Source of the DNA: Granulicoccus phenolivorans DSM 17626 = NBRC 107789 = JCM 15570
Lineage (GTDB): Bacteria > Actinomycetota > Actinomycetes > Propionibacteriales > Propionibacteriaceae
Assembly (NCBI RefSeq): GCF_000423085.1
Contig: NZ_AUHH01000009.1
Coordinates: 62,001 to 126,000, forward strand
Length of the DNA: 64,000 nt
Reading direction: 5' to 3'
Shown here piece after piece: positions 30,147-43,012 of the stretch (position 1 is the first letter of the stretch; each line of letters starts with the position of its first letter). Position numbers and translations under genes: made by a program. A model generated the notes under the pieces. The model saw only the letters and a program-made list of their open reading frames with translations, was not told the origin of the DNA and made no database searches.

Positions 30147-30231
30147 CGGAGGATAGGGGATTCGAACCCCTGAGGGCGTTAACCCAACCCGCTTTCCAAG
30201 CGAGCGCCATAGGCCACTAGGCGAATCCTCC
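30147..30231 (-). tRNA. tRNA-Ser (GGA)
   Basis: On the minus strand the acceptor GGAGGAT pairs with ATCCTCC, with discriminator G. The anticodon loop TTGGAAA gives GGA (complement of 30195-30197). There is a long variable arm, and the T-arm reads GGGGTTCGAATCCCC. CCA is not encoded. Candidate promoter: TTGGCA and TACCCT (complement of 30264-30269 and 30239-30244). Confidence 0.96.
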
Positions 30232-30293
30232 GCCGAGAAGGGTACCCGAGGTTGGTCACCTTTTGCCAACTGGAGCGTTACCGGAAGTTCGAC

Positions 30294-30299
30294 TACACT
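30294..30299 (+). promoter_or_regulatory. -10 element of the SRP RNA gene
   Basis: TACACT ends 7 nt before the first base of the RNA. The region also carries the divergent tRNA-Ser promoter. Confidence 0.55.
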
Positions 30300-30306
30300 G
30301 TTTGTC

Positions 30307-30394
30307 GGTTCCCCGTGTGGCGTTACCTCGCCCAACTCCCCCAGGACCGGAAGGTAGCAAGGGTAAGTGAGCTCTGGCGGGTGCGCGGGGAACC
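30307..30394 (+). ncRNA. ffs: Bacterial small signal recognition particle RNA (4.5S type)
   Basis: The conserved apical domain CAGGACCGGAAGGTAGCAAGGG is recognisable at about 30342-30363. The ends GGTTCCCCG and CGGGGAACC pair to form the long helix. A T-run (CCCCTTTTT) ends the transcript at about 30401. It binds Ffh for co-translational targeting. The location near tadA/tRNA-Ser and upstream of dnaX is usual in actinobacteria, although here 15 kb separates it from dnaX. Confidence 0.92.
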
Positions 30395-30423
30395 CCTTTT
30401 TGTGTCACCGGCCCGAGTCGGCA

Positions 30424-31425
30424 TCACCGCTGCGCGGTGGCTCGGGATGCGCTCTCGCTCCGGCCGAAGCGGGGCGCGGTCGCGGGTACCTCCCGCCCCT
30501 GCAGGTAGCGAAACGTCCGGACCGTTTGCGCCCACAGATGTTCCCCACTCGGTACCGCCGGGTAGCGCGTGGCGGCCGAGTCCTCCAGTTCGGGCAGTGG
30601 GGACACCATCGTGTGATGATCGACGGTGAAGAACAGTGGGTAGGCGTAGCGGTCCTGGGTGACCCGGCGCACCCGGTGTGTGGTTGCGGTGAACCGGCCC
30701 CCGGTCCAGACCTCCATCAGGTCGCCGATGTTGATCACCATCGCGTCCGGATCGAACGGCACCGCGATCCACTCGCCCTGTTCGTTGAGGACCTCCAGGC
30801 CCGGTGCGGTGGGCCGCAGCAGAGTCAGGACCTCGTAGTCGGTGTGCGCCCCGATCCCGGGCCGGTCCTGTCGTGACGGGTCCGGGGGATAGTGCAGCAG
30901 CCGCAACTGGGCCGGCGGCAGATTCACGTGCCGGGTCAATCGATCCGGGGCCAGCCCGAGTCCGAGCGACCAGGCGCCCAGAATCTCTCGCCCCAGTGCG
31001 AACGTTGCGGCGTACCAGGCCTCGACCGGCTCCCGGAACCCGGGCAGGTCCGGCCACTGGTTCGGTCCGAGCATCCGGGCCGGCCCAACTGCCGGATGGT
31101 CGGCCGGCAACTCGATGCTGAGGTCGTAGGCCTCCTTCAGATCCGGCGCCTGGCCGGCGAAGAACTCCTCACCGGGCGGCACCCAGCCGCGGTGATTGGT
31201 CGAGTTCCCGATCCAGACCCGACGCTTCTCCGCCTCCGGCTGAGCGAAGAACCGTTGCGAGGCCGCATGCATGGCCTCGAACACGGCCGGGTCGATACCG
31301 TGCCCGGTCACCTGCAGGAACCCAACCTCGGCCCCGGCCGCAGTCAGCGCCTCGATCACCGGCTGCGGATCGCTGCCACTGCGCAGCGGGGTCAGATCGA
31401 TGCTCGGAATCGTGGTGAAGGTCAT
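30424..31425 (-). CDS. Isopenicillin N synthase-like Fe(II)/2-oxoglutarate oxygenase
   Basis: A 333-residue double-stranded beta-helix oxygenase. The iron ligands are H194 and D196 (GAHTDYEVLTLL) and H250 (THRVRR). R259 in DRYAYPLFF is the likely 2-oxoglutarate anchor; the usual RxS motif reads R-Y-A here. The N-terminal helical half (GFLQVTGHGI, then FFAQPEAEKRRV) is typical of IPNS-like enzymes, a group that includes ethylene-forming enzyme and (homo)arginine hydroxylases. ATG 31425 follows AGGAG and overlaps the upstream stop (ATGA). It is the last gene of the symporter operon under the shared TetR-type operator. I infer a guanidino-compound substrate, not shown by sequence. Confidence 0.88.
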   Translation of the reverse strand: MTFTTIPSIDLTPLRSGSDPQPVIEALTAAGAEVGFLQVTGHGIDPAVFEAMHAASQRFFAQPEAEKRRVWIGNSTNHRGWVPPGEEFFAGQAPDLKEAYDLSIELPADHPAVGPARMLGPNQWPDLPGFREPVEAWYAATFALGREILGAWSLGLGLAPDRLTRHVNLPPAQLRLLHYPPDPSRQDRPGIGAHTDYEVLTLLRPTAPGLEVLNEQGEWIAVPFDPDAMVINIGDLMEVWTGGRFTATTHRVRRVTQDRYAYPLFFTVDHHTMVSPLPELEDSAATRYPAVPSGEHLWAQTVRTFRYLQGREVPATAPRFGRSESASRATAQR

Positions 31426-32039
31426 GTCCACTCCTGTTCGATCGTCCACTGGTGCAGTCCCTGCGGGGTGGTCAGGGCCACCTGGTCGGCGGTGCGGTTC
31501 AGCTGCACCGGGTGGCCGACCCAGTCCGGGGCACTGGCTCGGCGGATCTGCCAGCCGTCCGGGTCGGTCTCACCCATCGCGATCACCGGCGCGAACAGCG
31601 ATGTCCCCAGAGCGAACCGGCCATTTTCCGGAGGACCCAGTTGCAGCAGCACGGCCTTTCGGTCCCCACTGCGCAGCAGCAGTTCAAGCGTGATCGGGTG
31701 CGGCGCGGGCTGCCAGAGCTCCCGGTAATCCGCCTCGACCCCGAGCTCCAGGATCATGCCGTCTGCTTCGGTACGGAGCCGGCCCCGGTCGTCGGCCCCG
31801 GTCGGGGCGATATCGATCAGCCGGTCCCAGCAGGTGACGCCGTCCTCGATCCGGGTGCGGCCGGCGAATCCCTCGACGATGTCGCCCAGGCGCAGGTCCA
31901 CGTGCAGTTCCCGGCCTTGGAACCAGCGCACCCAGGTGCTGCAGTCGGTCTGCTGGGGATCTTGGTACAGCAGCCGGGTGAAGACGTGGCCGGCCAGGTC
32001 GGTCAGGCCCGGGGATCGGGTGTTGGTGAGCGCGGTCAT
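31422..32039 (-). CDS. Unrecognised conserved protein between symporter and oxygenase
   Basis: A 205-residue soluble protein that I cannot place in a family. It has no signal peptide or membrane segment. Regularly spaced charged/aromatic strands (DCSTWVRWFQGRELHVDLRLG, RIEDGVTCWDRLIDIAP, DYRELWQP) suggest a beta-rich, lipocalin-like or cupin-like fold. Its ATG overlaps the symporter stop (TGATG) and its stop overlaps the oxygenase start (ATGA), so all three are translationally coupled. A role in processing the same substrate is the simplest inference. Confidence 0.8.
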   Translation of the reverse strand: MTALTNTRSPGLTDLAGHVFTRLLYQDPQQTDCSTWVRWFQGRELHVDLRLGDIVEGFAGRTRIEDGVTCWDRLIDIAPTGADDRGRLRTEADGMILELGVEADYRELWQPAPHPITLELLLRSGDRKAVLLQLGPPENGRFALGTSLFAPVIAMGETDPDGWQIRRASAPDWVGHPVQLNRTADQVALTTPQGLHQWTIEQEWT

Positions 32040-33571
32040 CAGGCCGGAACCAGAACGGTGTCGGTGTCGGTATCGGTGTCGCGGTCGCTGTCGCCGCGCT
32101 CAAGGGCGAGCTTCTCCAACTCCCGCTCGCTGGTCGCCAGTTCCGCCTCGGTACGCGGTCGCACGAGGGCGATGATCACGAAGGTCAGGATGCTGGCGGC
32201 CGCGGAGATCAGGCTGGCCCAGCCGTCCATCTCGGTGCCCATGATGTTGTTCGGGATGTAGAGCAGGGTGTTCTCCACGCCGTACAGGGTCGGGATCAGC
32301 ACCAGGAACATGAGCCGCAGGACCAGGCCCACGCCGGCCGAGGCCAACGCGGCGACCACTCCGGGGCGCTTCCAGTACAGCCCGATCAGCATGGCCGGAG
32401 CCAGGCAGGCGAGCATCAGGTCGAAGGCAAGGGTGAGCAGGATGCCGGTCTCGCTGACCCGGGCCGCCAGGAGTACGCCGATCAGGGTCAGTGGGATCAT
32501 CACCAGGCGGGTCCACCGCAGCAGCGGATCATTCGGGCTCTCGGCCTGCCGGCGGACCTGGAACATGTTCCGGACGATCATTCCGGAGGTGGCCAGAATG
32601 GCGCCCGATGCCGTGGAGAACGAGGCGGCGACCACGCCGGAGAGCACCAGCACCGCCAGCAGCGGGGGAGCGTACTCACCCAACAGTTGATACAGGATCG
32701 GCGCCTTCTCACTGCTCAGCCCCAGCGCCCCGACAGCAGTCAGCGAAACCAGCGCGAACACGGTGCCGACGAAGAAGACCATCCCGGCGCCCACGAAACA
32801 GGCCTTGCGGGCGGTCTCTGGGCTTTTTGCTGCCAGGATGCGCTGCATGAAGTCGATCGCCACCAGGTCGCCGATACCCAGCGCGATCAGCGTCGCCCAG
32901 TTGATCGGCGCGCCCTGCGCCGGGTCGGTGAGCTGCCCGGTGTCGAAGGGCCCCATCCCCTGGGGGATCACAATGCCGTAGCTGACCGCGACCCAGACCA
33001 GCATGGACACGGTCGCGACCAGGGTGATCGCCACCTGGATGATCGAGGTGTACGCGTCGGAGAACAGCCCACCGGCGATCGTGTAGGCCAGGACCAGGAT
33101 CGCCGCGACGCTCAACCCGATCACGTAGGGAATGTGGGCGAAGTACTCCAGCAGGTACCCGCAGGCGACCAGGTTCCCGGCCAGCAGGACGGTGAAGGCG
33201 ATGGTGATGATCGCCGAGGACGTCAGCTCGGTGGCGCGGCCGTACCGCACCCGGTAGAAGTCGCCCAGGCTGTACAGCCGCATCCGGTTCATCGGCTTGG
33301 CGATGAACAGGCCGGCGAACAGCAGGCAGAACGCCAGGCCGATCGCCAGGGAACCGCCGGCCCAGAAGCCGAACTGTGAGGTCAGGTCGGTGTTGCCAAC
33401 GGTTCCGTTGGCGTCGACCGCAGCTGCGGTGAGGGACACCGCGACCAAGGGCAGGCCGAGCGTACGCCCGGCGACGAGGTAGTTGTCGGAGTCGCCGTCG
33501 ACCTTGCGGGCGACCGCAATCCCGACGACGATGACGGCAATCACAGTGATTGCGACACCAAGAATGATCAT
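32039..33571 (-). CDS. Sodium:solute symporter (SSS family)
   Basis: A 510-residue transporter with about 13 transmembrane helices. It has SDNYLVAGRTLGLPLVAVSLTAAAVDANGTVGN near 28-60 and LYSLGDFYRVRYGR near 100, both typical of SSS proteins. A central helix pair carries SGVVAASFSTASGAIL, resembling the sodium-binding TM8. The C-terminal tail ends in a Asp/Thr repeat (RDTDTDTDT), encoded by a short GTGTCG-type repeat at 32056-32085. ATG 33571 has GGGAG upstream. The operator at 33655-33674 lies just upstream. It imports an organic solute with Na+; a guanidino or urea-type substrate is inferred from context. Confidence 0.9.
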   Translation of the reverse strand: MIILGVAITVIAVIVVGIAVARKVDGDSDNYLVAGRTLGLPLVAVSLTAAAVDANGTVGNTDLTSQFGFWAGGSLAIGLAFCLLFAGLFIAKPMNRMRLYSLGDFYRVRYGRATELTSSAIITIAFTVLLAGNLVACGYLLEYFAHIPYVIGLSVAAILVLAYTIAGGLFSDAYTSIIQVAITLVATVSMLVWVAVSYGIVIPQGMGPFDTGQLTDPAQGAPINWATLIALGIGDLVAIDFMQRILAAKSPETARKACFVGAGMVFFVGTVFALVSLTAVGALGLSSEKAPILYQLLGEYAPPLLAVLVLSGVVAASFSTASGAILATSGMIVRNMFQVRRQAESPNDPLLRWTRLVMIPLTLIGVLLAARVSETGILLTLAFDLMLACLAPAMLIGLYWKRPGVVAALASAGVGLVLRLMFLVLIPTLYGVENTLLYIPNNIMGTEMDGWASLISAAASILTFVIIALVRPRTEAELATSERELEKLALERGDSDRDTDTDTDTVLVPA

Positions 33572-33654
33572 GTGTGCTCCCGAGAATGGCGCGCCGCAGC
33601 GCAGAGGGGTCCGGGTGGGCACCGGCCGCCCCGACGGGAGGTCGCGACCGGCAT

Positions 33655-33674
33655 TTTCTGTCTGACAACAGATA
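33655..33674. promoter_or_regulatory. TetR-type operator upstream of the symporter operon
   Basis: TTTCTGTCTGACAACAGATA matches the operator at 36078-36097 at 16 of 20 positions. It is placed 84 bp before the symporter start. Confidence 0.7.
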
Positions 33675-33753
33675 TTGGCCGGGGCGTGTTTCAGTGGATC
33701 GTTGGCAAAGGTCGGGAAGGTAACGCGATCGGGCAGGGCGTGACGAGGATGTT

Positions 33754-35226
33754 TCAGCGCCTGCCGAACCGGCGCCCGCGCGGCTGATCCACCACCTGCC
33801 AGGCCGGCATGTCGGTGCCGGGCAGCACCGCGTCGGCCAGTTGGTAGCGGGACCAGGCGTAGCGCACCTGCCGGCCTTCGACGATCGGGTCGGTGCTGTC
33901 GCGGAGCTGGCGGACCACCGCCCGGAGATTGGCCGCGCACTCGGCGTAGGTCTTGTCGTCGGTGCGGAAGAGATCGCGCTCGCCCACCGCCCGTAGCCCC
34001 CGGGTGACCGCGCCCCGGTCCGGGTGCTCCGGGTCCAGCGGATGCACGCGGAACGTCACCTCGACCCGTTTGGCCGCGATGTCGCGGTCGAGTTCGGCCG
34101 GCGTACAGACGTGGCCCTGGTGCGGCAACCAGACCGCGGTGACGCGGCCGCCGGCGGTAATCATCTGGGTCACGAGAAAACCGGCCAGCTGCGACGCTTC
34201 CTCGGCAGGGCCGGAGGAGTTCCCGCTGGGGACGGCGGAGGTCAGGGTCACCACGCTGCGATGCCCGGCCACCGCGGCGGACAGGGCGGAGTTCCCGCGC
34301 GCGGCGGTGTCGATGGCCAGCGCGGGCTCCTCGAGTGGGTCGGGGGACAGGGTCAGCCGGACGTGGGTGCCCGCGACCGGCAGCACGTACTCGGTCTCCG
34401 CCGACTCCGCCAGGGCGGCGGCCGGCTCCGGCAGCACACTGCCGAACACCTCGCCCAGGTGCCGGGCCGGCTCACCCAGCAGGAGGTGGATCGCCCAGGT
34501 GTCCAGGACCACGTCACCGCGGCTCGGATCGATGACCGCCGAGATGCCCGCCGCCGAGAGGCGGTCCAGCAGCGCGTCTCCGCCGTTGGGGGTCGTGACC
34601 TTGTACGCCAGCTCGGCCGCAGTGATCGGGAACACCGCCAGATAGTCGGTATCGCCCTCGGGGGTGGTGGCCCGCATGAGCGCCGGTGGGTAGCCCAGCG
34701 GTGGGCCGATCAACGCTGCGGCGAACGGAGCCGAGTCATCGAACAGCATGTTGTCCTGATCGGTGATCGTGTGCCCCCAGGCCAGGAAGCTGTCGTAGGT
34801 CTGCGGAATCCGGGCCACGTCCTTCAGCATCCGGATCGGCCAGAAGTTGGCTTCCTTGTCCAGCTCCGCCTCGTTGATCGGGTCGAGGCCGGGCCACCCG
34901 GCCGGAAGACCGATCATCAGTTCGAGCCGGGCATGCTCGAACCCGTCGGGCACGGCCATCGGCAGATCCGACATGCCGGCGGTGACCAGGGTCAGATGGG
35001 GGTAGTCCTGGCTCGGCGGGAACACGTGGAGATCGAGGGTGATGCCCCAGCTGCGTCGTTCGGACAACGTGATGTACTCGTCCCCGAGGTAGCGGCGCAG
35101 ATGGAACTCATTGGCCCTCCGGCGTTGCTTGTCGCGCGGGGCGGGGGTCAGTCCCTCGATCGGGTCGATGTGGCGGTAGATCGGGTCTCCGTTGGGAGCG
35201 AACTCCTCATCACCGGGATCACTCAT
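33754..35226 (-). CDS. Suppressor-of-fused (SUFU) domain protein
   Basis: A 490-residue protein. Residues about 50-200 have the bacterial SUFU pattern: ERRSWGITLDLHVFPPSQDYPHLTLVTAGMSDLPM, HARLELMIGLPAGWP and FLAWGHTI. The rest is a less familiar alpha/beta region that ends in a basic tail. Bacterial SUFU proteins are often linked to toxin-immunity or stress loci, but their function is mostly unknown. ATG 35226 follows CAGGAGAGG. It lies between the TetR gene and the symporter on the same strand; membership in the regulon is uncertain. Confidence 0.82.
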   Translation of the reverse strand: MSDPGDEEFAPNGDPIYRHIDPIEGLTPAPRDKQRRRANEFHLRRYLGDEYITLSERRSWGITLDLHVFPPSQDYPHLTLVTAGMSDLPMAVPDGFEHARLELMIGLPAGWPGLDPINEAELDKEANFWPIRMLKDVARIPQTYDSFLAWGHTITDQDNMLFDDSAPFAAALIGPPLGYPPALMRATTPEGDTDYLAVFPITAAELAYKVTTPNGGDALLDRLSAAGISAVIDPSRGDVVLDTWAIHLLLGEPARHLGEVFGSVLPEPAAALAESAETEYVLPVAGTHVRLTLSPDPLEEPALAIDTAARGNSALSAAVAGHRSVVTLTSAVPSGNSSGPAEEASQLAGFLVTQMITAGGRVTAVWLPHQGHVCTPAELDRDIAAKRVEVTFRVHPLDPEHPDRGAVTRGLRAVGERDLFRTDDKTYAECAANLRAVVRQLRDSTDPIVEGRQVRYAWSRYQLADAVLPGTDMPAWQVVDQPRGRRFGRR

Positions 35227-35313
35227 CGAAAGCCTCTCCTGAGGGGCCGGACGGCGTCACTGTACGCCGGGACCGGGCGAGTACGCCGGATCGGGCGATC
35301 AGGCCGGCCCGGA

Positions 35314-35973
35314 TCAGGGCAGGGCATGCAGTGGTTCGGGCCCGGGCAGCGCCGCGGCCAGGGCCTGGCCCGAGCGTCGGTCCGCTTCGCGAATCGGTGC
35401 CCGGGCCACCAGCAGGACGGCAGCATCGGCGACCTGTTCGGCCGGCAGCGCGGCGTCGGTCCCGCGGTGCCGCGCCAGGATCACCGACTCCACCAGGCCG
35501 ATCACCAGCGACGCCTCGGCCCCGGCTCCCGGCCGGCACTGCTCGGCCAGCGCGGAGTAGCGTCGCTCCACCTGCTGCCAGGCGTCCCGGAACCGTGCGA
35601 AGGCCTCGTCCTGCACCTCCGGCAGCAGGTACAGGGCGCCCAGGTTCACCTCCCCCTGGCCCAGTTGCCGGGCGTCCCACCAGGTCAGTGCCCACAGCCG
35701 GGCCGCAGCCGGCTCACTGCCGACGAGCAGGTCACCGGCCAGGTCGATCGTCGGCTGCACCGTGTCCAGCAACAGGGTGAGCAGGATCTCCTCCCGGTTC
35801 GGGAAATAGTGGTAGAGCGTCGCCTGGGAGATTCCGGCCTTCTCGGCGATGGCGTGGGTGCTGGCCTGGAATCCGTGGACCGCGAACAGTGCCGCGGCGG
35901 CGTACAGGATGTCGGCCCGGGTCCCGCGCCCGGTGGGGGATTCGCTCTTGCGGGGTCGTCCGCGTCCTGCCAT
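35314..35973 (-). CDS. TetR/AcrR-family regulator of the carboxylase and symporter operons
   Basis: A 219-residue repressor. The N-terminal helix-turn-helix (GTRADILYAAAALFAVHGFQASTHAIAEKAGISQATLYHYFPNREEIL) is a standard TetR domain, and the C-terminal ligand domain is variable. It is divergent from the DUF1989/carboxylase operon. A perfect 8+8 palindrome at 36078-36097 lies between them, and a near copy precedes the symporter operon. I infer that it binds both sites and its own promoter. ATG 35973 precedes AGRGRPRKSE. The ligand may be guanidine, urea or the imported compound. Confidence 0.88.
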   Translation of the reverse strand: MAGRGRPRKSESPTGRGTRADILYAAAALFAVHGFQASTHAIAEKAGISQATLYHYFPNREEILLTLLLDTVQPTIDLAGDLLVGSEPAAARLWALTWWDARQLGQGEVNLGALYLLPEVQDEAFARFRDAWQQVERRYSALAEQCRPGAGAEASLVIGLVESVILARHRGTDAALPAEQVADAAVLLVARAPIREADRRSGQALAAALPGPEPLHALP

Positions 35974-36077
35974 GCGGTCCAGCTTTGCCGACGCCGACCC
36001 GGCCCGGCAACCGCAACACAGCCGTAACGCCGCTCGAACAGCCCGGTCACATCCGTCGATTTGACTACCTTCAACAG

Positions 36078-36097
36078 TTTCTGTCGGACGACAGAAA
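36078..36097. promoter_or_regulatory. TetR-type operator upstream of the carboxylase operon
   Basis: A perfect inverted repeat, TTTCTGTC-GGAC-GACAGAAA, in the divergent region between the TetR gene and the first DUF1989 gene, 53 bp before the latter's start. It is AT-richer than its surroundings and shared with 33655-33674. Confidence 0.82.
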
Positions 36098-36149
36098 AAC
36101 CGCGACGCCGGCTCTGCCCAGCATCCGCCGACCACCGAAGGAGACCGCC

Positions 36150-36986
36150 GTGACCACTGCGACCGCCACCACCGCCGGGGCTCGGGAGCACGCCCGGGCC
36201 CAGGCGGGGACCCCCTGCGACACGATGCCGATCCTGCCGGCGACCGACTTCCCCGACGTCCCCGCCGGCATCGACCCGGCGACCCTGGTCTGGGCCGAGC
36301 GGGTCGCCGGAGGCAACTACACCCACAAGGTCCTGGCCCGCGGCACCCTGCTGCAGCTGACCGACCTCACCGGCGACGCCTGCGCCCATGTCCTGCTCTA
36401 CAACGCCCTGGAACCGGTCGAACGACTCAACGTCGCCGACACCCAGAAGGTGCAGTGGCAGGTCTATACCGACACCGGTCAGCTCCTGCTCAGCGACCAG
36501 GGCCGCGTCCTCGCGTCGGTCGAGGCGGCGACCGCCGGCCGCCACGACTCGATCTTCGGCACCAGCACCCGCGCCCGCAACGAGGAGCGCTACGGCGACG
36601 GCGCCCCGCACGGCCCGTCCCCGGCGGGTCGCGAACTGTTCAAACTGGCCGGCCTCAAGCACGGCCTGGAGGCCCGCGACCTGCCGCCGAACGTCTCCTT
36701 CTTCCAGGGCGTCCGCATCGACGCAGACGGCCACCCGCACTGGGAGGGCTCGGCCGGGCCCGGCGCCGGCATCACCCTGCGGATCGAGATGCCCGCGATC
36801 GTCCTGATCGCCAACACCGCCCATCCGCTGGACCCGCGCCCGGCGTACCACTGCGGCCCGCTCGAGGTGCTCGCCCGCCGTGACCGCCCCACCACCGATA
36901 CCGACCCGCTCTGGTCGCGCAGCCCCGAGGGGCGCCGCGCGTACGCCAACACTCTCGACTACCTGACCGCCCGCGGTCTGGCCTGA
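36150..36986 (+). CDS. DUF1989 protein 1 (urea carboxylase-associated; carboxyguanidine deiminase subunit)
   Basis: A 278-residue DUF1989 protein. It has WAERVAGGNYTHKVLARGTLLQLTDLTGDACAHVLLYNA near 50-90 and later PLEVLARRDRP. The family was long called urea carboxylase-associated protein 1 (UAAP1). In characterised systems the two DUF1989 proteins form carboxyguanidine deiminase, which turns N-carboxyguanidine into allophanate and ammonium. GTG 36150 follows GAAGGAGA. It is the first gene of a five-gene operon and is followed 11 bp later by its partner. Confidence 0.88.
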   Translation: MTTATATTAGAREHARAQAGTPCDTMPILPATDFPDVPAGIDPATLVWAERVAGGNYTHKVLARGTLLQLTDLTGDACAHVLLYNALEPVERLNVADTQKVQWQVYTDTGQLLLSDQGRVLASVEAATAGRHDSIFGTSTRARNEERYGDGAPHGPSPAGRELFKLAGLKHGLEARDLPPNVSFFQGVRIDADGHPHWEGSAGPGAGITLRIEMPAIVLIANTAHPLDPRPAYHCGPLEVLARRDRPTTDTDPLWSRSPEGRRAYANTLDYLTARGLA

Positions 36987-36997
36987 AAGGACCCGAG

Positions 36998-37633
36998 ATG
37001 ACCACGCTCATCCGACCCGACTTCGGCACCGTGCTGTCCCGCCACACCGTGGCCCCGCGGGCCCCCTGGTCGGCGATCCTGACCGCCGGCCAGGTGCTCA
37101 CCATCGTCGACCTCGACGGCAACCAGGCCGTGGACTTCCTGTGCTACGACGCCCACGACACCTCCCGCGCCTACTCCGTCCAGGCCACCCTGCAGGGCCA
37201 GGGCTCGGTCTACCTGACCGAGGGCTCGATCCTGCGCGACAACGAGTACGACCCGCTGCTCGTCGTGGTCGCCAACGACGTCGCCCGCCAGGACACCCTC
37301 GGCGGCGCCTGCTCCAAGGAATCCAACACGCTGCGCTACGGCCACCACACCTGGCACCAGCACGGCTGCGTCGACAACTTCCTGATCGAACTGAGCAAGT
37401 ACGCGATGGGCAAGCGGGACCACGTCTCCAACGTCAACTGGTTCATGAACGTCCCGGTCGACCCCGACGGGGCGTTGGGCATCGTCGACGGCATCTCGGC
37501 CCCCGGCCTCCGGGTCAGCCTGCGGGCCGCCAAGGACACCCTGGTTGTCGTCTCCAACTGCCCGCAGATCAACAACCCCTGCAACGGCTTCGACCCCAGT
37601 CGCGCCGAGATGATCATCCAGGAGGGCCGATGA
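36998..37633 (+). CDS. DUF1989 protein 2 (urea carboxylase-associated; carboxyguanidine deiminase subunit)
   Basis: A 211-residue DUF1989 protein, UAAP2 type. It has QVLTIVDLDGNQAVDFLCYDA near 30-50, and Cys/His-rich segments SKESNTLRYGHHTWHQHGCVDNF and a C-terminal NCPQINNPCNGFDPS. It is the expected partner of the preceding protein in carboxyguanidine deiminase. Its stop overlaps the carboxylase start by 4 bp (ATGA), so translation is coupled. The adjacency of both subunits with a carboxylase points to guanidine rather than urea use. Confidence 0.88.
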   Translation: MTTLIRPDFGTVLSRHTVAPRAPWSAILTAGQVLTIVDLDGNQAVDFLCYDAHDTSRAYSVQATLQGQGSVYLTEGSILRDNEYDPLLVVVANDVARQDTLGGACSKESNTLRYGHHTWHQHGCVDNFLIELSKYAMGKRDHVSNVNWFMNVPVDPDGALGIVDGISAPGLRVSLRAAKDTLVVVSNCPQINNPCNGFDPSRAEMIIQEGR

Positions 37634-40600
37634 CCACCCCGCTGCCGACGACCCTGCTGATCGCCAACCGTGGCGAGATCGCCGTCCGGATCATCCGGAC
37701 CGCCAAGCGCCTGGGCCTGCGTACGGTCGCGGTCTTTTCCGAGGCCGACCGGGGTGCGCTGCACGTGCACCACGCGGACGAGGCCGTCCTGCTGGGCGGC
37801 GAGGCGGCCGCCGATTCCTATCTGCGCCAGGACCGGATCATCGAGGCCGCCCGGGCCACCGGCGCCACCCTGATCCACCCCGGCTACGGCTTCCTGTCCG
37901 AGAACGCCGACTTCGCCCGGGCCTGCGCCGCGGCCGGGATCACCTTCGTCGGCCCGACCCCCGAACAACTCGAACTGTTCGGCGCCAAGCACACCGCCCG
38001 GGCCGCCGCCGAAGCCGCCGGTGTCCCGATGCTGCCCGGCACCGGTCTGCTCGCCGACCTGACGCAGGCGTACGCCGCGGCCGACCGGATCGGCTATCCG
38101 GTGATGCTCAAGGCGACCGCCGGCGGTGGTGGCATCGGCATGCAGGCCTGCCACACCCCGGCCGAACTCGGTGCCGCCTGGGACAACGTACGCCGCCTCG
38201 CCGGCGCCAATTTCGCCTCCGCCGGGGTCTTCCTGGAGCGCTTGGTCACCCACGCCCGACACGTCGAGGTCCAGATCTTCGGCGACGGCGCCGGCACCGT
38301 GATCAGCCTCGGCGACCGCGACTGCAGCCTGCAGCGCCGCAACCAGAAGGTGCTCGAGGAATCCCCGGCCCCCGACCTGCCCGATACCGTCCGCGCCGAG
38401 ATCGCCGACGCCGCCCGCCGGCTGTGCGCCGCGGTCGACTACCGGTCGGCCGGCACCGTGGAATACATCTACGACGCCGTCCGCCAGGAGGCCGCCTTCC
38501 TGGAGGTGAACACCCGCCTCCAGGTCGAGCACCCGGTGACCGAGGCCCGCTACGGGATCGACCTGGTCGAATGGATGCTGCGGCTGGCGCTGGGGGAGAC
38601 CGACGTGGTCGCCGAACCGGCCGCTCCGACCGGGGCCGCGGTGGAGGCCCGGATCTACGCCGAGAACACCGACCTGGGCAATGTGCCCAGCTCCGGCACG
38701 ATCACCGCCGCCGAGTTCCCCGAAGGCGTCCGCGTCGACGGCTGGATCGAGGCCGGCAGCGCGGTCTCCACCAGCTACGATCCGCTGCTGGCCAAGCTCA
38801 TCGTGCACGGCACCGATCGCGCCGACGCCTGGGCCAAACTCGGCGCGGCGCTCGCCGCCACCCGGGTCCAGGGCGTGGCGAGCAACCTCGGCCTGCTGCG
38901 CACCGTCGCCGAGGAAGAGACCGTCCTCGCCGCGACCCACTCCACCGACACCCTCAACCACGTCGTCAACACCCAGCCGCGGTTCGAGGTCCTCAAGGGC
39001 GGCCTGCTCACCACCATCCAGGACTGGCCCGGCCGGGTCGGGTACTGGCCGGTGGGCATCCCGCCGTCGGGCCCGATGGACGACTGGTCCTTCCGGGCCG
39101 GGAACCGGGCGCTCGCGAACGCCGAGGGCGCACCGGGCCTGGAGATCACCATGGCCGGGCCCACGCTGCGCTGTCACACCGAGACCCGGCTGATCGTCAC
39201 CGGCGCACCCACGCCGGTCACGGTCGATCAGGCCCCGGTCCCGCAGTGGGAACCGATCACCGTCCCCGCCGGCGGCGTCCTGGAGATCGGGACCCCGACT
39301 GCCGGCATGCGCAGCTACCTGCTCGTCGAGGGCGGCCTCGACGTCGCCCCGGTGATGGGCTCGGCGGCCACCTTCACCGACGGGAAGATCGGTGGTCTCA
39401 CCGGCGGTCCGTTGCGCCCCGGCGACATCGTCCCGCTGGCCACCCCCGCCGAGCCGCAGCAGGTCTGCATCGTGCCGAGCGCCGAGCGGCCGGACTTCTC
39501 CGCGCGCTGGGAGATCGCCGCCCTGGAGGGCCCGCACGCCGCGCCGGAGTTCTTCACCGAGTCCGACATGGAGACCTTCTACAACACCGACTGGGAGGTG
39601 CACTTCAACTCCGCCCGCACCGGCGTACGCCTGGTCGGACCGAAACCGGAATGGGCCCGCAGTGACGGCGGCGAGGCCGGGCTGCACCCGAGCAACATCC
39701 ACGACACCGCGTACAACGTCGGTGCGGTCGACTTCACCGGCGACATGCCGATCCTGCTCGGCCCCGACGGACCCAGCCTGGGCGGATTCACCTGCCCGGT
39801 GACCGTGCCGACCGCGCACCGCTGGATGCTCGGCCAGCTGCGTCCCGGGGACCGGGTCCGGTTCGTGCCGATCTCGATGCCGCAGGCGCACGGGCTGCGC
39901 CGCTCGCCGCTGGCGGCGCCGGTGCCCGACCGCGGTTGCATCGTCGACGGCGGGATCCTGCTGACCGACCCCGGCCGCCCCAGCGGCCCTGGAGAAGCGG
40001 GCCGCCCCAGCGCCCCCGCAGCAGGGATCCGCCATGACGATCTGCCGTCGATGACCGTACGCCGCCAGGGCGACGCGGCACTGCTGGTCGAATACGGCCC
40101 GATGCAACTGGACCTGGTGGTCCGGATGCGGGTGCATGCCCTGGCCCAACGGATCAGCGAACTCGCCGATCACGACCGACTGGCCGGGATCATCGAGCTC
40201 ACCCCCGGCATCCGGTCCCTGCAGATCCACCTGGATCCCGACGTGGCCGACCCCGAAGCCCTGGTCAACCTGCTGCGCGACCTCGACTACGCGCTGCCCT
40301 CGACCAAGGACCTGCGGGTCCCCAGCCGGACGGTGCACCTGCCGCTGTCCTGGGACGACCCGGCCACCCGGGAGGCGATCCAGCGATACATGGCCGGCGT
40401 CCGCGACGACGCCCCCTGGTGTCCGTGGAACATCGAGTTCATCCGCCGGATCAACGGGCTCGCGAGTGTCGAGGACGTCTACCGGACCGTGTTCGACGCC
40501 GAATACCTGGTCATGGGCCTGGGCGACGTCTACCTCGGCGCCCCGGTCGCGACCCCGCTGGATCCGCGGCACCGGCTGGTCACCACCAAGTACAACCCGG

Positions 40601-41310
40601 CTCGCACCTGGACTGCGGAGAACTCGGTCGGCATCGGCGGGGCGTACCTGTGCATCTATGGAATGGAGGGCCCCGGCGGTTACCAGTTCGTCGGCCGGAC
40701 CACCCAGGTCTGGTCCACCCACCAGCAGCGCGGCGCGTTCGAGCCCGGGGTGCCGTGGCTGCTGCGCTTCTTCGACCGGATCAAGTGGTTCCCAGTCAGC
40801 ACCGAGGAACTGGCCGAAATGCGCGCCGACATGGCCGCCGGCCGGCTGGAGCTGAAGATCGAGGAGGGCACCTTCGGGGTGGCCGAGTACGCCGAGTTCC
40901 TGGCCGAGAACGCCGACTCGATCGCGGAGTTCCGGAACAAGCAGCAGGTAGCGTTCGCCGCCGAGCGGGCGGCCTGGGAGGCGTCCGGGGAGTTCGAGCG
41001 GGCCTCGGTGGCCGGGGGAGCCGAGCCGGAATCGGCCGAGGTGGAGATTCCGCCGGGCTGTACGGCGGTGGAGGCACAGTTCGCCGCGAACGTGTTCCGG
41101 ATCGACGTGGCCCCCGGGGACCGGGTCCGCGCCGGCCAGACGCTGCTCGCGGTCGAGGCGATGAAGATGGAGGCCGCGGTGGTCAGCCCGGTCGACGCGG
41201 TGGTGGTCGAGGTCCTCACCCGCTGCGGCGCCCAGGTGGCGCCGGGGACACCGCTGGTCGTGGTGCGTACGCAGAACGAAGAGCTGGACGAGATGGAGGC
41301 AGTGGCATGA
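37630..41310 (+). CDS. Biotin-dependent urea/guanidine carboxylase
   Basis: A single-chain carboxylase of 1226 residues. An N-terminal biotin carboxylase (about 1-455; ATP-grasp loop KATAGGGGIGM, then EVNTRLQVEHPVTE) is followed by the carboxyltransferase halves. These are an AHS2/KipA-like domain (TIQDWPGRVGYWPVGIPPSG near 460) and an AHS1/KipI-like domain (MTVRRQGDAALLVEYG). The C-terminal biotin carrier has VEAMKMEA with Lys1179. The Gly/Pro-rich linker between AHS2 and AHS1 is encoded by a short duplicated GC block near 39970-40015. It carboxylates urea to allophanate or guanidine to N-carboxyguanidine; the neighbouring DUF1989 pair favours guanidine. Confidence 0.93.
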   Translation: MTTPLPTTLLIANRGEIAVRIIRTAKRLGLRTVAVFSEADRGALHVHHADEAVLLGGEAAADSYLRQDRIIEAARATGATLIHPGYGFLSENADFARACAAAGITFVGPTPEQLELFGAKHTARAAAEAAGVPMLPGTGLLADLTQAYAAADRIGYPVMLKATAGGGGIGMQACHTPAELGAAWDNVRRLAGANFASAGVFLERLVTHARHVEVQIFGDGAGTVISLGDRDCSLQRRNQKVLEESPAPDLPDTVRAEIADAARRLCAAVDYRSAGTVEYIYDAVRQEAAFLEVNTRLQVEHPVTEARYGIDLVEWMLRLALGETDVVAEPAAPTGAAVEARIYAENTDLGNVPSSGTITAAEFPEGVRVDGWIEAGSAVSTSYDPLLAKLIVHGTDRADAWAKLGAALAATRVQGVASNLGLLRTVAEEETVLAATHSTDTLNHVVNTQPRFEVLKGGLLTTIQDWPGRVGYWPVGIPPSGPMDDWSFRAGNRALANAEGAPGLEITMAGPTLRCHTETRLIVTGAPTPVTVDQAPVPQWEPITVPAGGVLEIGTPTAGMRSYLLVEGGLDVAPVMGSAATFTDGKIGGLTGGPLRPGDIVPLATPAEPQQVCIVPSAERPDFSARWEIAALEGPHAAPEFFTESDMETFYNTDWEVHFNSARTGVRLVGPKPEWARSDGGEAGLHPSNIHDTAYNVGAVDFTGDMPILLGPDGPSLGGFTCPVTVPTAHRWMLGQLRPGDRVRFVPISMPQAHGLRRSPLAAPVPDRGCIVDGGILLTDPGRPSGPGEAGRPSAPAAGIRHDDLPSMTVRRQGDAALLVEYGPMQLDLVVRMRVHALAQRISELADHDRLAGIIELTPGIRSLQIHLDPDVADPEALVNLLRDLDYALPSTKDLRVPSRTVHLPLSWDDPATREAIQRYMAGVRDDAPWCPWNIEFIRRINGLASVEDVYRTVFDAEYLVMGLGDVYLGAPVATPLDPRHRLVTTKYNPARTWTAENSVGIGGAYLCIYGMEGPGGYQFVGRTTQVWSTHQQRGAFEPGVPWLLRFFDRIKWFPVSTEELAEMRADMAAGRLELKIEEGTFGVAEYAEFLAENADSIAEFRNKQQVAFAAERAAWEASGEFERASVAGGAEPESAEVEIPPGCTAVEAQFAANVFRIDVAPGDRVRAGQTLLAVEAMKMEAAVVSPVDAVVVEVLTRCGAQVAPGTPLVVVRTQNEELDEMEAVA

Positions 41311-42614
41311 GCGAGTCGAGCGAAATCACCGGCGTGGCCAAGGTGGCCGAGGCGTACGCCCGGGTCGCGGCGGCCGACCGGCCGGAGGTCTGGATCACCT
41401 TGCGCGACCGTGACGAGGTGGCAGCCGAGTTCGCCGCGGTGCAGGCCGCCGTGGCGGCGGGGGAGCCCCTGCCGCTGGCCGGGACCCTGTTCGCGGTGAA
41501 GAACAACATCGACGTGGCCGGGATCGTGACCACCGCCGGGTGCCCCGCGTACGGTTTCGAACCGGTGAGCGACGCACCGGTGGTCGCTCGGCTGCGGGCC
41601 GCCGGGGCGGTGGTGCTCGGGTCGACCAACCTGGACCAGTTCGCCACCGGCCTGGTCGGGGTCCGCAGCCCGTACGGGGCGGTCCGCCATGCAACCCATC
41701 CGGACCTGGTCTCCGGCGGTTCCTCCAGCGGCTCCGGGGTGGCCGTCGCGCTCGGCTTCGTCGACTTTGCCCTGGGCACCGACACGGCCGGCTCGGGACG
41801 GGTCCCCGCCGCGTTCCACGGCCTGTACGGGGTCAAGCCGACCCGCGGTCTGGTGCCGACCACCGGGGTGGTCCCGGCCTGCGCCTCCTTCGACGTGGTG
41901 ACCGTGCTGGACACCGACCCGGTCCGGGCCGCCCTGATCGCGCAGATCATGGCCGGCCCCGATGCCGGGGACCCGCTGTCCCACCGGCCGGCGGCCCCGG
42001 CCCGCCTGGTCCGCCGGGTCGGGATCGCCACCACCGAACAGCTCGGCGAACTCGCCCCCGGCTGGGCCGAGGCGTACGCCGCCGAGGCCGACCGGCTCGC
42101 CGAGCGTGGTCTGGAGCTGGTCGAGGTCGACATCACGATGCTGCTGGACACCGCCCGGATGCTCTACGACGGGGCTTTCGTCGCCGAGCGGTACGCCGCG
42201 GTCGGCGAGTTCGTCGACGCGCACCGCACCGAGGTCGACCCGACCGTCGGCGGCATCATCGCCAAGGCCCGCGACATTCCGGCCTGGCAACTGGCCCGGG
42301 AGAGCCGCGACCTGGATCGGCGCCGGGTCGAAGCAGCCCGGATGTTCGAAACCATAGATGCGCTACTGCTCCCGGTCACCACCCAGCATCCGAGTATCGC
42401 CGCGGTGCAGGCCGATCCGGTCGGGATCAATCGGGACCTGGGCCGGTTCACCAACTTCGTCAATCTGCTCGACCTGGCCGCCCTGGCCTACCCCGCCGCG
42501 GAGGTGAATGGGCTCCCGTTCGGGGTCCAGCTCGTGGGTCCGGCCTACAGCGACGCCGAACTGCTGGTCGCCGCCGGGGTCGGGGGGCGGGAATCGGTGG
42601 GGGCGGCCGGATGA
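41307..42614 (+). CDS. atzF: Allophanate hydrolase, amidase domain
   Basis: A 435-residue amidase-signature enzyme that hydrolyses allophanate to ammonium and CO2. Lys65 (LFAVKNNID), the GGSSSGSG loop near 137-144 with the cis-Ser, and nucleophile Ser163 in TDTAGSGRVPA are visible. Characterised AtzF/DUR1-type enzymes carry a further C-terminal domain of about 130 residues; it is missing here and is encoded by the next gene. Its ATG overlaps the carboxylase stop (ATGA), and its own stop overlaps the next start (ATGA). Confidence 0.93.
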   Translation: MSESSEITGVAKVAEAYARVAAADRPEVWITLRDRDEVAAEFAAVQAAVAAGEPLPLAGTLFAVKNNIDVAGIVTTAGCPAYGFEPVSDAPVVARLRAAGAVVLGSTNLDQFATGLVGVRSPYGAVRHATHPDLVSGGSSSGSGVAVALGFVDFALGTDTAGSGRVPAAFHGLYGVKPTRGLVPTTGVVPACASFDVVTVLDTDPVRAALIAQIMAGPDAGDPLSHRPAAPARLVRRVGIATTEQLGELAPGWAEAYAAEADRLAERGLELVEVDITMLLDTARMLYDGAFVAERYAAVGEFVDAHRTEVDPTVGGIIAKARDIPAWQLARESRDLDRRRVEAARMFETIDALLLPVTTQHPSIAAVQADPVGINRDLGRFTNFVNLLDLAALAYPAAEVNGLPFGVQLVGPAYSDAELLVAAGVGGRESVGAAG

Positions 42615-43012
42615 GGCTTGCGGTGGTGGGTGCGCATCTGGCCGGGCAGCCGCTGCATCACCAGCTCAGCGACCGGGCTGCCGTGCTGGTGGCCGTGACC
42701 CGGACTGCCCCGGCGTACCGGTTGTGGGATCTGGGCACGACGCCGGCCAAACCGGGCCTGGTCCGCGACCCCGACGCGGGCGCGGCGATCGTGGTCGAGG
42801 TCTGGGACCTGGGCGGGGAGGCGTTCGCCGGCTTCGTCGACGCCCTGGCCACCCCGATGGCGATCGGGCATGTGGAACTGGGCGACGGGTCCTGGGTGAA
42901 CGGCTTCCTGGTCGAGCCGTACGCGCTCACCGGCGCGACCGAGATCACCGAGTACGGCGGCTGGGCGGCCTACCTGGCCGGCCGCGCGGTGAGCCAGTCG
43001 GCAAAGGTGTGA
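42611..43012 (+). CDS. Stand-alone allophanate hydrolase C-terminal domain
   Basis: A 133-residue protein: MRLAVVGAHLAGQPLHHQLSD at the start, RTAPAYRLWDL near 35-45, and ITEYGGWAAYLAGR at the end. This matches the C-terminal domain normally fused to AtzF, a gamma-glutamylcyclotransferase-like fold thought to act on N-carboxycarbamate. As a separate, overlapping gene (ATGA), it implies a two-subunit allophanate hydrolase. Its last 43 bp overlap the 3' end of the convergent LysR gene. Compare with fused AtzF to judge whether this is ancestral or a fission. Confidence 0.88.
   Translation: MRLAVVGAHLAGQPLHHQLSDRAAVLVAVTRTAPAYRLWDLGTTPAKPGLVRDPDAGAAIVVEVWDLGGEAFAGFVDALATPMAIGHVELGDGSWVNGFLVEPYALTGATEITEYGGWAAYLAGRAVSQSAKV

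Follow-up and report, generated by a model that had tools for sequence, protein, structure and literature searches.

A locus at positions 30424-43012 of a 64-kb stretch of Granulicoccus phenolivorans DSM 17626 (contig NZ_AUHH01000009.1, positions 62,001 to 126,000; below, the window, in whose coordinates all positions are given) most probably encodes an AmtR-controlled regulon that scavenges nitrogen from methylguanidine and guanidine. Its two operons lie on either side of a TetR-type repressor gene. One encodes a symporter, a small protein and a 2-oxoglutarate (2OG)-dependent oxygenase, and the other a DUF1989 pair, a carboxylase and an allophanate hydrolase, a gene order already described in a first-pass annotation of this DNA. 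That annotation read the locus as an undescribed TetR regulon in which guanidine is freed from a guanidino amino acid. One TetR protein with operators at both operons and a guanidine pathway hold up in our analysis; the novelty of the regulon and the amino acid substrate do not. The evidence comprises gene content, homology, signature residues, and the operator boxes and their conservation, all of it sequence-based.

The carboxylase operon

The plus-strand operon carries an adjacent UAAP1/UAAP2 pair beside the carboxylase, both members scoring above their curated cut-offs, as for carboxyguanidine deiminase CgdAB. The carboxylase (Gca) has the TIGR02712 domain order. When it is aligned with full-length urea amidolyase of Kluyveromyces lactis (5i8i), Asp701 faces N1330 (GAVDFTGD versus GAINFTGD), and the Asp of a GLGD motif is kept at K. 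lactis position 1584. Aspartates at these two positions are the rule for guanidine carboxylases (PMC11410670), and both are present here together with the expected domain order. Because of the curated UAAP matches and the two aspartates, the operon is, by homology, the guanidine carboxylase pathway, in line with the guanidine-type carboxylase and DUF1989 pair named in the first-pass annotation. An identity as urea carboxylase was rejected, since the signature residues point to guanidine. Gene content and the Asp signature are shared with the Gca–CgdAB–AtzF pathway (PMC12186494), from which the window differs in having a repressor protein in place of a guanidine riboswitch.

UAAP2 of the window is 78-79% identical to its Rhodococcus counterparts (L056, L064) and about 58-63% identical to copies from its own family (L208-L212). 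This suggests that at least some of the locus was acquired horizontally.

The oxygenase and its partner protein

In Vreelandella boliviensis, the 2OG dioxygenase MgdH and the beta-barrel lyase MgdL convert methylguanidine to guanidine and formaldehyde (PMC12508155, 2025). MgdL uses D49 and R51 as catalytic residues, and mgdHL lies inside a gca operon with guanidine-I (Gd-I) and guanidine-II (Gd-II) riboswitches (PMC12508155). Our reference for both proteins was a gammaproteobacterial operon (L191) with the order Gd-I, cgdA, cgdB, Gd-II, gca, mgdH, mgdL, atzF, whose MgdL carries Asp49-Leu-Arg51 at the positions named as catalytic; it stands in for V. boliviensis by its riboswitches, gene order and D49/R51, not by accession. 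A second, similar riboswitch operon was found (L190).

The window oxygenase (P0001) is 53% identical to the L191 MgdH over 313 amino acids (E 6e-121), and its Fe(II)/2OG residues are intact (HTD194-196, H250, R259). In a phylogenetic tree it groups with Rhodococcus MgdH (support 93/91), within a clade (96/90) that also contains the L191, L190 and mycobacterial MgdH proteins. Its neighbour, P0002, which was given no role in the first-pass annotation, has no Pfam or NCBIfam match; it matches the L191 MgdL at E 1.5e-10 and has D48-L-R50. Fourteen residues are invariant in 25 MgdL homologues, including D48, R50, W39, W71, E98, E107 and W109. The predicted structure of P0002 is an all-beta barrel (pLDDT 94.1, pTM 0.89), which agrees with the MgdL fold (PMC12508155). 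The Protein Data Bank (PDB) held no meaningful sequence or fold relative of P0002 (best TM 0.18), and a search of plasmids gave no match. A weak P0002 match at L010/L018 was rejected as an unrelated enzyme.

By these similarities the oxygenase and its partner are homologues of MgdH and MgdL. This supports the oxidative release of guanidine proposed in the first-pass annotation, and makes methylguanidine, not arginine or homoarginine, the likely substrate, as it is the predicted lyase that decides between them. The window shares with V. boliviensis a 2OG dioxygenase and a beta-barrel lyase beside gca, cgdA/B and allophanate hydrolase, the catalytic Asp-x-Arg, and an oxygenase 53% identical to that of an operon of the same layout. 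It differs in its actinobacterial host, in placing the pair in a separate operon, in having an SSS-family symporter where V. boliviensis has an ABC importer, and in its AmtR boxes, which take the place of the Gd-I and Gd-II riboswitches.

The oxygenase could instead hydroxylate a guanidino amino acid such as arginine or homoarginine next to the guanidino group, freeing guanidine, with P0002 as an accessory protein. Proteins of the ethylene-forming-enzyme type are among the PDB matches of P0001, such enzymes do release guanidine according to the introduction of PMC12508155, and the product would feed the same gca operon. However, bacterial ethylene-forming enzymes match P0001 only at about 1e-15, far more weakly than the riboswitch-operon MgdH, and an oxygenase of this type was rejected on these grounds. 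Moreover, the hemiaminal of the ethylene-forming-type reaction decays unaided, leaving no role for an MgdL homologue with the catalytic Asp and Arg. We therefore regard a guanidino amino acid substrate as very improbable. What the window oxygenase has in common with the ethylene-forming enzyme and plant homoarginine-6-hydroxylases (PMC11018352) is the IPNS-type 2OG oxygenase fold and guanidine-freeing chemistry; it is much less similar to them in sequence, and has another predicted substrate and a dedicated lyase partner.

Elsewhere in the L191 genome, away from the gca operon, lies a second, diverged mgdH-mgdL pair (L192; 42% and about 27% identity), whose substrate may be a different one.

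AmtR and its operator boxes

The repressor (P0004) is the sole AmtR-type TetR of the genome. Its best PDB match is AmtR of Mycobacterium smegmatis (5e57, E 1.9e-31), followed by AmtR of Corynebacterium glutamicum; the AmtR matches span 1e-31 to 1e-23, and the next TetR protein follows at 8e-9.

The box of the symporter operon (33655-33674) reads TTTCTGTCTGACAACAGATA and that between amtR and the gca operon (36078-36097) reads TTTCTGTCGGACGACAGAAA, a perfect palindrome TTTCTGTC-N4-GACAGAAA. The two are identical at 17/20 bases, lie 84 bases from the symporter ATG and 53 bases from the UAAP1 GTG, and match the pattern with 0 mismatches, where 0.19 chance matches with up to 3 mismatches would be expected in the window. 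Across the genome (4,117,723 bases), matches to TTTCTGTCNNNNGACAGA with 0-1 mismatches occur only at these two places, which bears out the near-identical 20-bp operators reported ahead of both operons. The pattern is that of the AmtR consensus, TAtCTGTCa-n2-cGACAGATAT as quoted in PMC8864220, with CTGTC-N4-GACAG at both target promoters. A search for guanidine riboswitches (Gd-I, Gd-II, Gd-III and Gd-IV aptamers) found none in the window, nor in the two Rhodococcus loci L056 and L064.

In ten actinobacteria, amtR is reported to accompany genes for a 'urea carboxylase' and an amidase, together with two unknown reading frames (PMC4222082, 2013). By deletion and gel shift, M. smegmatis AmtR represses and binds the 'urea carboxylase' operon, and its binding is unaffected by urea and amino acids (PMC4222082). 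An AmtR-type TetR gene was nearby in 35 of the 47 gca loci that we checked, and 24 of the 47 had a box (up to 4 mismatches) just upstream of UAAP1, compared with 0 in a reversed control; many of the remaining loci have the box at the TetR or permease promoter instead. When up to 2 mismatches are allowed, 88 loci (1.6 Mb) contain 45 boxes, and the reversed control gives 0. From the window's own family we examined five further gca loci, each of which has AmtR and a box.

The TetR regulon is thus not undescribed: the PDB search gave AmtR and the literature gave its box (PMC4222082, PMC8864220). On this evidence, the regulator and gca half of the locus is the known AmtR regulon, previously read as urea metabolism. 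The AmtR-type TetR, the CTGTC-N4-GACAG box and control of the urf1/urf2/'urea' carboxylase/amidase operon are common to the window, M. smegmatis and other actinobacteria (PMC4222082, PMC5137332, PMC8864220). Unlike in the published regulon, a box in the window also precedes a symporter-mgdL-mgdH operon, and we interpret the carboxylase operon as guanidine rather than urea metabolism.

Conserved linkage in other genomes

Conserved linkage of the two operons in relatives, a test set beforehand in the first-pass annotation, was found in three organisms. In Rhodococcus rhodnii (L056) and Rhodococcus sp. HNM0569 (L064), UAAP1-UAAP2-Gca-allophanate hydrolase genes are divergent from amtR, mgdL, mgdH and the symporter gene; one box precedes UAAP1 and another lies at mgdL. 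Mycobacterium sp. IS-1742 (L058, L122) has a different importer, of the Opp type, which forms one unbroken block with the gca operon, amtR and mgdLH; each end of this block carries a box. UAAP2 scores above its cut-off in 36 of 45 MgdL-bearing genomes versus 42 of 395 in the class. Within the class sample, 6 of 8 MgdL genomes have UAAP2 (Fisher p 2.5e-5, uncorrected for kinship).

In both Rhodococcus loci the AmtR box (GTCGTATGACAG; L056:9949-9968, L064:9964-9983) encloses the start codon of mgdL, implying a leaderless transcript.

Several observations weigh against the methylguanidine assignment. P0002 is a short, diverged protein (28% identity over 147 amino acids), and lacks an insertion found in the longer Vreelandella-type and Rhodococcus MgdL proteins. 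None of 117 other genomes sampled from the window's own family has mgdL. The co-occurrence count of MgdL and UAAP2 ignores kinship. Mycobacterial mgdLH genes stand in a different catabolic operon, whose other products are an isochorismatase, a lactonase-like hydrolase, an Opp-type importer and, in some cases, an allantoinase, and some of these genomes have no UAAP2 above cut-off; because of this, some members of the family may act on other N-methyl compounds.

The window pair itself could demethylate or dealkylate another small N-methyl compound, for example one derived from creatinine, a hydantoin or a ureide, with guanidine incidental and gca merely co-regulated for nitrogen scavenging. The hydantoin/ureide-type genes of the mycobacterial operons and the lack of UAAP2 in some of these genomes fit such a role, as do a Frankia pair that comes after amidohydrolase genes and the control of creatine/creatinine genes by C. 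glutamicum AmtR (PMC8864220). We consider this unlikely: the partners in the window, in Rhodococcus and in Vreelandella-type operons are exactly the guanidine pathway, and the assayed MgdH of V. boliviensis prefers methylguanidine (PMC12508155).

Besides the Opp-type ABC importer, six mycobacterial and Nocardia mgdLH loci (L012, L014, L016, L038, L041, L058) share an AHL-lactonase-like hydrolase and an isochorismatase whose relatives include biuret/N-carbamoylsarcosine hydrolases; L012 also has genes for a racemase-like protein and an allantoinase. An AmtR-type TetR gene with a perfect or near-perfect box stands at the start of several of these operons. The Streptomyces loci L017 and L043-L045 encode MgdL-like proteins, and MgdH was not found close by. 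Two of them, L017 and L045, have a gca operon adjoining the MgdL-like gene, and no AmtR-type TetR was found there. L187 and L189 have MgdL homologues and a guanidine-I riboswitch a few kb away, with MgdH not found in the stretch examined.

The symporter

Symporter copies 46-47% identical to that of the window lie downstream of mgdLH in the two Rhodococcus loci. Another locus (L174) has a 65% identical symporter beside amtR and gca, and a search there for mgd genes found none. Because this copy adjoins amtR and gca without mgd genes, the symporter probably carries guanidine itself as well.

Organisation of the locus

The genes and boxes are listed in Table 1. The minus-strand genes for symporter, MgdL-like and MgdH-like proteins overlap start to stop, and those of the plus-strand operon are closely spaced. 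The TetR gene lies between the operons, as first annotated, and adjoins a SUFU-domain gene that the first-pass annotation left unmentioned along with the splitting of the allophanate hydrolase. The open reading frames (ORFs) of the amidase and of the C-terminal domain share an ATGA overlap; the allophanate hydrolase of Streptomyces and mycobacterial relatives is a single protein of about 540-560 amino acids. A tRNA gene and a signal recognition particle (SRP) RNA gene (30147-30400) directly adjoin the 3' end of mgdH. Their position, together with the absence of mgdL from the 117 family genomes, raises the possibility that a transferred block was inserted here.

Table 1. Genes and predicted operator boxes of the locus (window coordinates).
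Feature	Position	Strand	Basis or remark
mgdH-like Fe(II)/2OG dioxygenase (P0001), predicted methylguanidine hydroxylase	30424-31425	-	DIOX_N and 2OG-FeII_Oxy domains
mgdL-like protein (P0002), 205 amino acids, predicted N-(hydroxymethyl)guanidine lyase	31422-32039	-	similarity to L191 MgdL
SSS-family Na+/solute symporter (P0003), predicted guanidine/methylguanidine importer	32039-33571	-	PF00474
AmtR box of the symporter-mgdL-mgdH operon	33655-33674	no strand	predicted site
SUFU-domain protein gene, 490 amino acids	33754-35226	-	between amtR and the symporter operon
AmtR-type TetR repressor gene (P0004)	35314-35973	-	PDB match
AmtR box between amtR and the gca operon	36078-36097	no strand	predicted site
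UAAP1 / cgdA, carboxyguanidine deiminase subunit	36150-36986	+	TIGR03425, 277 bits, above cut-off
UAAP2 / cgdB, carboxyguanidine deiminase subunit	36998-37633	+	TIGR03424, 301 bits, above cut-off
Guanidine carboxylase (gca)	37630-41310	+	TIGR02712, 1731 bits
Allophanate hydrolase, amidase part	41307-42614	+	PRK08186, 536 bits; PF01425
Allophanate hydrolase, C-terminal part, own ORF	42611-43012	+	PF21986 AH_C

Proposed pathway and signal

We infer the enzyme activities in this organism, the binding of the repressor, the imported substrate and the inducer. The operons would be switched on when AmtR leaves both boxes, and the symporter would import guanidine and methylguanidine. By homology to the assayed enzymes, MgdH would hydroxylate the methyl group of methylguanidine using Fe(II), O2 and 2-oxoglutarate, and MgdL would cleave the resulting N-(hydroxymethyl)guanidine to guanidine and formaldehyde. 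As in the established pathway, Gca would then carboxylate guanidine, the UAAP1/UAAP2 deiminase would yield allophanate, and allophanate hydrolase would release ammonia and CO2. The formaldehyde is probably oxidised by a mycothiol-dependent formaldehyde dehydrogenase encoded elsewhere in the genome, where such a gene is present (608 bits).

Guanidine and methylguanidine are the natural candidates for the inducer, because the regulon is small and pathway-specific and because the Gd-II riboswitch controlling the Vreelandella operon binds both compounds (PMC12508155). AmtR may thus really be a guanidine sensor. There is close to an even chance, however, that it senses no guanidine compound and is a general nitrogen-status repressor, relieved through competition with GlnR or by another signal. 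Nitrogen control of these genes in M. smegmatis needs GlnR, with AmtR secondary (PMC4222082), and M. smegmatis AmtR, which urea and amino acids do not release, may have no small-molecule inducer; both points speak against a guanidine-responsive AmtR. AmtR reportedly competes with GlnR and is under the control of an antisense RNA (PMC10704036), and C. glutamicum AmtR is released by the PII protein. A general role fits poorly with a regulon so tiny and pathway-specific, with two good sites in this genome, and with the clustering of AmtR genes with gca, as expected for a pathway-specific TetR. Furthermore, guanidine and methylguanidine are not among the effectors listed in PMC4222082.

We tentatively propose, as a hypothesis that we rate somewhat below an even chance, that the AmtR repressor of actinobacteria responds to guanidine/methylguanidine and replaces guanidine riboswitches across Actinomycetes, which would make it the first protein-based transcription factor for guanidine; the 'urea' regulon would then be a guanidine regulon, extended here to methylguanidine demethylation. 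Our literature search, outside which most subscription papers fell, found no paper joining AmtR and guanidine, nor a test of guanidine as effector. The regulon is real and conserved. Each of its halves was known before, one as a supposed urea system; what is new is that AmtR unites them, that it takes the place of riboswitches, and that it becomes a candidate guanidine-sensing transcription factor.

The locus names a candidate guanidine-sensing transcription factor for which a structure (5e57) and a defined box already exist. Guanidine sensing would offer a resolution of two reported oddities, the indifference of M. smegmatis AmtR to urea and amino acids and the failure of the strain to grow on urea. 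Methylguanidine demethylation, described in halophilic proteobacteria, would with this locus also be found in actinobacteria, and predicted roles can be assigned to an unnamed protein family (that of P0002) and to an SSS symporter.

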